Below, piece after piece: positions 33,587 through 38,545 of a DNA stretch of 64,000 nucleotides (positions are counted from its first letter, which is position 1; each line of letters opens with the position of its first letter). Made by a program: the position numbers and the translations under genes. The notes beneath the pieces are model-generated. The model made no database searches. It had not been told where the DNA came from and saw only the letters and a list, made by a program, of their open reading frames with translations. The DNA comes from Dictyoglomus thermophilum H-6-12 (GTDB taxonomy: Bacteria; Dictyoglomota; Dictyoglomia; Dictyoglomales; Dictyoglomaceae), in NCBI RefSeq assembly GCF_000020965.1, contig NC_011297.1, forward strand, positions 1,130,387 to 1,194,386, in the 5' to 3' direction.

Positions 33587-36854
<3,268 letters not shown>

Positions 36855-36871: not shown

Positions 36872-37229
36872 TTAAATTAATCTGGAGATATATCTAAAGA
36901 ATATTAATAACCCTGATACCAATGCCATCAAAGCCAAAATAAAAACAGCAGAAGCAGAGAGATCTTTAACTACCTTTATTTTAGGAGAATACTCTTCGGA
37001 GAGAACATCCATTGCCCTTTCAATAGATGAGTTAAAAAACTCAGCACTAATCACCACACCACATAATTATTAATAGCTTATCTGTTGAATCAAAATTTAA
37101 AACTATTGATAAAATTATGACAATTATTGCTATAAATGCTTGAATTTTTATATTTCTTTCATATTTCAAGCCAAAAACTAAACCCTCTATAGCTTTTGAC
37201 ACACTTTCAATAAGATTTCTATTTCTCAT
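36872..37229 (-). pseudogene. dgkA: Diacylglycerol/undecaprenol kinase, frameshifted
   Basis: DgkA-type integral membrane kinases phosphorylate undecaprenol or diacylglycerol. Frame A, from ATG 37229 (overlapping the ybeY stop as TAATG), encodes the N-terminus with GLKYERNIKIQAFIAIIVIIL and ends at TAG (37049-37047) after LLIIMWCGD. Frame B resumes at once with VVISAEFFNSSIE, the catalytic AExxNTxIE-type motif, and runs to TAA at 36872 through two more helices. Together they make one complete DgkA. The break lies at two TGGTG repeats (37061-37052); a third unit would restore W-C-G-V-V-I-S. It could be a real mutation, a phase-variable site, programmed frameshifting or an assembly error. Confidence 0.85.
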
Positions 37230-37657
37230 TATCTCCAAAGAGAAATCAGATTTTTAGTTTCCTTTTCCATTTCCCTATAGTCCTCTTCCTTTTCATGATC
37301 ATAACCAAGTATATGCAAAAGTCCATGTAAGGTCAAAAAAGCAACTTCATCTATAAGATTTTTATTATTTTCCTCCGATTGAACGCGAGCAGTATCTATA
37401 GATATATAGATTTCTCCAATTATTCTCCCCTTAGGATCCTTTCCAAGAGAAAAAGAAAGAACATCGGTAGGCACATCTTTTTTCCTATATTTACTATTAA
37501 GCTCTCTTATCTTTTCATTATTCACGAAAACTACTGATATATCATACTTGTTAGGAAGAAGTCCCTTCTTCTTTAAAACTTCCTTAACAAAATTTTTAAT
37601 CCTCTCATTCTCTTTCTTTTCAAAATACCCATTTAAATCAAATACATTAACACTCAT
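37229..37657 (-). CDS. ybeY: Endoribonuclease YbeY
   Basis: Single-strand endoribonuclease needed for 16S rRNA 3'-end maturation and ribosome quality control. The 142-residue protein has the zinc motif HGLLHILGYDH (H-x3-H-x5-H, near 113-123) and the LNSKYRKKDVPTDVLSF segment. It starts one base after phoH ends. Its TAA stop overlaps the dgkA ATG. Confidence 0.96.
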   Translation of the reverse strand: MSVNVFDLNGYFEKKENERIKNFVKEVLKKKGLLPNKYDISVVFVNNEKIRELNSKYRKKDVPTDVLSFSLGKDPKGRIIGEIYISIDTARVQSEENNKNLIDEVAFLTLHGLLHILGYDHEKEEDYREMEKETKNLISLWR

Positions 37658-38545
37658 TTATTTTGTCTCCCATCTTTCGTAAGCTTTTATGATCTCCTTC
37701 ACTATATCGTGTCTTACTACATCTTTTTCAGTAAGTTCCACAAAACCTATACCTTTTATACCTTTCAATACTTCCCAAGCATGATTCAATCCAGAAGTTT
37801 TACCTATATCAAGATCTGTTTGTGTTATATCCCCTGTAACAACCATTTTACTGCCTTCTCCAAATCTTGTAAGAAACATTTTCATCTGCATAGGAGTAGT
37901 ATTTTGAGCCTCATCCAAAAGTATAAAAGAATATTTAAAAGTCCTTCCCCTCATATAAGCAAGAGGGGCAACTTCAATTATATTTTTCTCTACATACTTA
38001 GTAAGTTTCTCAAATCCCAACAACTCTTCTAAGAAATCATAGAGAGGCCTTATATAAGGATCTACTTTCTGCTGAATGTCCCCAGGGAGAAAACCTAACT
38101 TTTCCCCTGCTTCTACTACTGGTCTTGTTAAGATCATCTTCTGTACAAGATTATTCTTTAACATATTCAAGCCTACTGCTATCGCAAGAAAACTTTTTCC
38201 TGTGCCTGCAGGACCTTTTGCCAACACTATATGATTTTTTTCAATTTCTTCTACATATCTTTTCTGCCCTGGGGTTAGTATCCTTACTATCTTCTTATCA
38301 AAAACAAATACCCTATGACTTTGAAAAGTTTCACCTTTCTTAGAAACAGATATTTGATCCAAAAGAAAAGCTTCCACCCTTTTTACGGACTCTGGCTCTC
38401 CGTAAATCACTACCTTATTGTCTTCTAACTTAATTTTTACATTATCTATTTCTTCTAATGACTCGAGGTTTTTCAATATATCTTCTTTATAAATTGCTAC
38501 CTCTTTTGGAATTACTATCTCTGTCCTTGTTAATGCTCTCTCCAT
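37658..38545 (-). CDS. phoH: PhoH-family ATPase
   Basis: A 295-residue ATPase of the PhoH/YbeZ group, paired with YbeY in most bacteria and thought to support rRNA maturation. An N-terminal KH-like nucleic-acid-binding part (about 20-70) is followed by Walker A AKGPAGTGKS (near 108-117), MILTRPVVEAGEKLGFLPGD, Walker B FILLDEAQNTT near 209, and VVTGDITQTDL. It lies between rpsU and ybeY as in clostridia (the PhoH family domain at about 80-285 matches). Confidence 0.95.
   Translation of the reverse strand: MERALTRTEIVIPKEVAIYKEDILKNLESLEEIDNVKIKLEDNKVVIYGEPESVKRVEAFLLDQISVSKKGETFQSHRVFVFDKKIVRILTPGQKRYVEEIEKNHIVLAKGPAGTGKSFLAIAVGLNMLKNNLVQKMILTRPVVEAGEKLGFLPGDIQQKVDPYIRPLYDFLEELLGFEKLTKYVEKNIIEVAPLAYMRGRTFKYSFILLDEAQNTTPMQMKMFLTRFGEGSKMVVTGDITQTDLDIGKTSGLNHAWEVLKGIKGIGFVELTEKDVVRHDIVKEIIKAYERWETK

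Follow-up and report, generated by a model that had tools for sequence, protein, structure and literature searches.

For the prokaryotic kinase DgkA (PF01219), residues E69, N72 and E76 of the E. coli enzyme are listed as functionally important (PMC6408475). In B. subtilis, a dgkA mutant is without growth defect, and a reporter indicated an effect on the supply of undecaprenyl phosphate during late stationary phase (PMC5723303). Where tandem pentamers have been scanned for in H. influenzae, the published cut-off was three or more units (PMC2651432). No paper on dgkA in Dictyoglomus thermophilum was found in the literature. The window analysed here is a stretch of 64,000 nucleotides from strain H-6-12, lying within a genome that is a single contig of 1,959,987 bases, and its dgkA is split into two frames at a short pentamer repeat. 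The most probable explanation, at roughly two chances in three, is that a recent 5-base slippage deletion inactivated the single dgkA of H-6-12, with no special mechanism involved.

The dgkA locus and its two frames

The gene lies in a minus-strand run consisting of a phoH-like gene, ybeY, dgkA, a CNNM/CBS/CorC_HlyC gene, pyrG, cdd and era, in which the names of phoH-like, pyrG, cdd and era come from sequence only. The intact open frame upstream of ybeY (37658..38545, minus strand) is one that we take to be phoH-like from its sequence and from the usual phoH-ybeY-dgkA order. The endoribonuclease gene ybeY (37229..37657, minus strand; PF02130, E 8e-39) is also intact; its stop and the start of dgkA share one base in TAATG (37231-37227, minus strand), which suggests that translation of the two genes may be coupled, and the junction is similarly close in the sister species. 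By its family match and its place in the ybeY-dgkA run, the broken gene is assigned as dgkA, predicted to encode a small integral-membrane diacylglycerol/undecaprenol kinase.

As a whole, dgkA extends from 37229 to 36872 on the minus strand, with its two frames parting at TGGTGTGGTG (37052..37061, minus strand), which is made up of two TGGTG units at 37061-37057 and 37056-37052 and is where five bases are missing in comparison with the sister species. The 5' part (37047..37229, minus strand) starts with the ATG at 37229, has 60 codons, ends in ...MWCGD-stop and matches PF01219 at positions 3-47 (E 1e-7); the 3' part (36872..37057, minus strand), in the other frame, runs from GTG to TAA over 61 codons and matches positions 51-102 (E 2e-15). 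Both pieces exceed the cut-off of this family profile, in two frames rather than one continuous frame. From 37064 to 37047 the minus strand reads ATG TGG TGT GGT GAT TAG, and the premature TAG (37047..37049) is in frame through the deletion. The initial annotation had placed the two halves in different frames meeting at the two TGGTG units, and this is confirmed in the sequence; it had also named a second, intact dgkA as a finding that would speak against it, and a PF01219 profile search of the whole genome matches only these two pieces.

The 5' part covers the N-terminal portion of the protein and ends before the catalytic residues of TM2, ahead of those equivalent to E69, N72 and E76 (a correspondence made by eye from the conserved motif). 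The 3' part carries the catalytic segment E-F-F-N-x-x-I-E together with TM3, and is without the N-terminal surface-helix region and TM1. A working two-piece kinase appears unlikely from this division of the protein.

Relatives, repeat and past selection

The relatives compared, at one genome per species, were G001 (the sister species), G002 (same genus), G003, G004, G005 and G006; a search of genome contigs yielded one distant relative only and no second D. thermophilum genome, and viral contigs likewise yielded none. The G001 genome has 1,855,560 bases, is syntenic and shares about 82% identity with D. thermophilum; from this synteny and identity, we take it to be D. turgidum DSM 6724, for which the published average identity to D. 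thermophilum is 82.4% (PMC5167688). In G001 dgkA is whole, and the alignment is continuous with exactly five extra bases at the break point, where the protein reads W-C-G-V-V-I-S-A-E. This is the reading that the initial annotation had obtained by adding one TGGTG unit, and the five additional bases bear out its proposal that the loss of one unit explains the break. The gene is also intact in G002 and in G004 and G006 of a neighbouring genus; in G005 it is interrupted by contig ends, and there is no match in G003, whose genome is 72% complete. The pattern observed directly, a 5-base difference with a premature stop in a single-copy gene whose orthologues are intact in relatives, is a lineage-specific disabling change in an otherwise conserved gene, as is expected of a recent pseudogene.

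The pentamer tandem is confined to the two sister species, being missing in G002, G004 and G006, and G001 has an imperfect third unit (TGGTA), both of which argue against a switch based on unit number. Each of the two sister Dictyoglomus genomes has a single copy of the surrounding 12-mer, TGTGGTGTGGTG, at this place. As more distant relatives use other codons for this part of the protein, the repeat is likely a by-product of the Cys-Gly-Val-Val codons rather than a conserved element. Its length is equally ordinary: compared with ten simulated sequences having the dinucleotide content of the window, the window contains 66 period-5 tandems of at least 10 bases (mean of 82 simulated), 15 of at least 11 bases (23 simulated) and 4 of at least 13 bases (3.4 simulated). 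The two TGGTG units are at chance level and unremarkable, although the break as such is real relative to the relatives.

Between D. thermophilum and G001, dgkA has a dS of 1.04 and a dN of 0.080, giving a ratio of 0.077, and for the 56 orthologues of the window the median is 0.055 (quartiles 0.028-0.092). When changes were polarised with G002, 12 synonymous and 6 non-synonymous changes fell on the D. thermophilum lineage and 17 and 6 on the sister lineage, counts that are small and set no exact date. Beyond the 5-base loss, neither half of dgkA contains a stop or frame break that would represent a second disabling change. As the ratio resembles that of an ordinary intact gene, the break is either recent on the evolutionary scale or absent from the organism. 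Judged from these substitutions, ordinary constraint acted on dgkA during most of the period after the species split, so that the selection which the initial annotation saw on both halves holds as past purifying selection. Ancient decay of dgkA was also considered and is ruled out by the ratio.

Along the 56 kb in which synteny with G001 is unbroken, dgkA alone is split (1 of 56 sister-species ORFs). A further 200 kb, aligned at about 82% and carrying about 190 orthologous ORFs, revealed no additional interrupted gene, so that across the roughly 256 kb compared with G001 no orthologue other than dgkA was found to have a broken frame. The remaining flags comprise alternative or over-extended starts, with stops near the starts of over-extended ORFs, very C-terminal stops, one spurious ORF over a tRNA-like stretch and antisense-looking ORFs. 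With no other broken orthologue in 56 plus about 190 ORFs, generally poor sequence quality is ruled out; the sequence is of good quality, and genes are not being shed at large in the sampled regions.

Two further genes of the window have unusual starts. Downstream of dgkA, the intact CNNM/CBS/CorC_HlyC gene (35577..36854, minus strand; PF01595, PF00571, PF03471) lacks an ATG, GTG or TTG close to where PF01595 would place the N-terminus, and the match to this family begins at residue 6 when counted from a CTG at 36854-36852 (minus strand). In D. turgidum, G002, G004 and G006, the corresponding position likewise has an in-frame CTG following a purine-rich GTGAGG/GTGAAG run, and this gene probably starts at a conserved CTG codon. 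For the RseC/MucC-like gene (PF04246; 8284-8757, plus strand), the longest ORF is over-extended; its true start is probably internal, as D. turgidum has stops just ahead of an internal ATG.

Origin of the break

With a single genome of the species, a real mutation is inseparable from a sequence or library-clone error, and a fixed change from a polymorphic one; mutation and sequence error, both named in the initial annotation, are still live options. The main rival holds that the organism carries an intact dgkA and that the database entry is short by five bases. Only one assembly was examined, and as it is otherwise clean over about 256 kb, an isolated break in a conserved gene would also fit a rare error. 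Membrane-protein genes can acquire mutations in plasmid clones, which counts for an error; the loss of a whole 5-base unit is typical of biological slippage and not of a Sanger miscall, which counts against it. The libraries were indeed plasmid clones; however, the Sanger assembly was of about 9x, with at least double-clone coverage everywhere and manual editing (PMC3931368). An error is considered unlikely, though it deserves to be kept in mind, and the database entry would want correction if this were the cause.

Phase variation would instead have the number of TGGTG units turn dgkA on and off, and one whole unit does differ between the two sister species. In H. influenzae, a tract of four pentamers switches rapidly, and at one locus some strains have two units and others three; however, strain Rd has 1,676 two-unit pentamers, and two is the longest tract expected by chance (PMC2651432). 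A Neisseria study used a cut-off of five or more units (PMC5953494), and the two units of dgkA are not above chance number. The product is moreover an inner-membrane salvage kinase and not a surface structure. The on/off switch suggested in the initial annotation is set back by this low unit number and by the absence of the repeat from more distant relatives, and is regarded as quite improbable. Were D. thermophilum to toggle its sole DgkA kinase by slippage at such a very short pentamer tract, an extreme thermophile would have a minimal switch that acts on the recycling of the cell-wall carrier lipid; the likelihood of this is very small. Decoding has also been proposed as the explanation, in that a programmed +1 (or -2) shift, or re-initiation at GTG 37057, could yield a full-length or two-piece kinase. 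The stop is met at once, the downstream GTG frame overlaps it, and both halves are well conserved; however, no slippery or shift-prone codon pair is visible at the junction, no stable downstream RNA structure that could stimulate a shift is found (z = -0.42 at 37 C), and no Shine-Dalgarno-like run lies ahead of GTG 37057. Relatives with the whole gene on one contig use a single frame, so there is no conserved shift signal, and a +1 shift would be predicted to cost one or two TM2 residues just ahead of the catalytic glutamate. These points weigh against the +1 shift of the initial annotation, and a decoding event of either kind is highly improbable.

Under the preferred reading of a recent slippage deletion, the TGGTG copies would have arisen by happenstance from the Cys-Gly-Val-Val codons, and replication slippage between neighbouring copies may have removed five bases, deletion at such a repeat being what replication slippage does. 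The loss would bring TAG 37049-37047 into frame and end dgkA early. The strain would survive as the kinase is presumably a salvage enzyme and the de novo supply of undecaprenyl phosphate by UppP probably stays. Since BacA/UppP (PF02673) and a DAGK_cat lipid kinase (PF00781) are kept intact in the genome, and the B. subtilis mutant grows, loss of dgkA in a laboratory-held strain is plausible. The reference strain is probably without a working DgkA and is a poor basis for inferring kinase function in the species; beyond annotation, the break has little significance.

Likeness to known systems

In comparison with prokaryotic DgkA (PF01219), the D. thermophilum gene agrees in that both pieces exceed the family cut-off, in the ybeY-dgkA order seen in many bacteria, and in that the sister species and the neighbouring genus carry the orthologue intact; it differs in that the frame is broken just ahead of the catalytic glutamate of TM2. 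With the pentanucleotide phase-variable genes, such as hsdM of H. influenzae and opa of Neisseria, it shares the five-base unit and the change of frame per unit; however, dgkA has two units only, at chance level and unconserved, and is not a surface or restriction gene. The likeness is closest to single-strain slippage pseudogenes, in which one unit is lost at a short chance repeat in a single lineage with no further decay, and no feature distinguishing D. thermophilum dgkA from these was seen.
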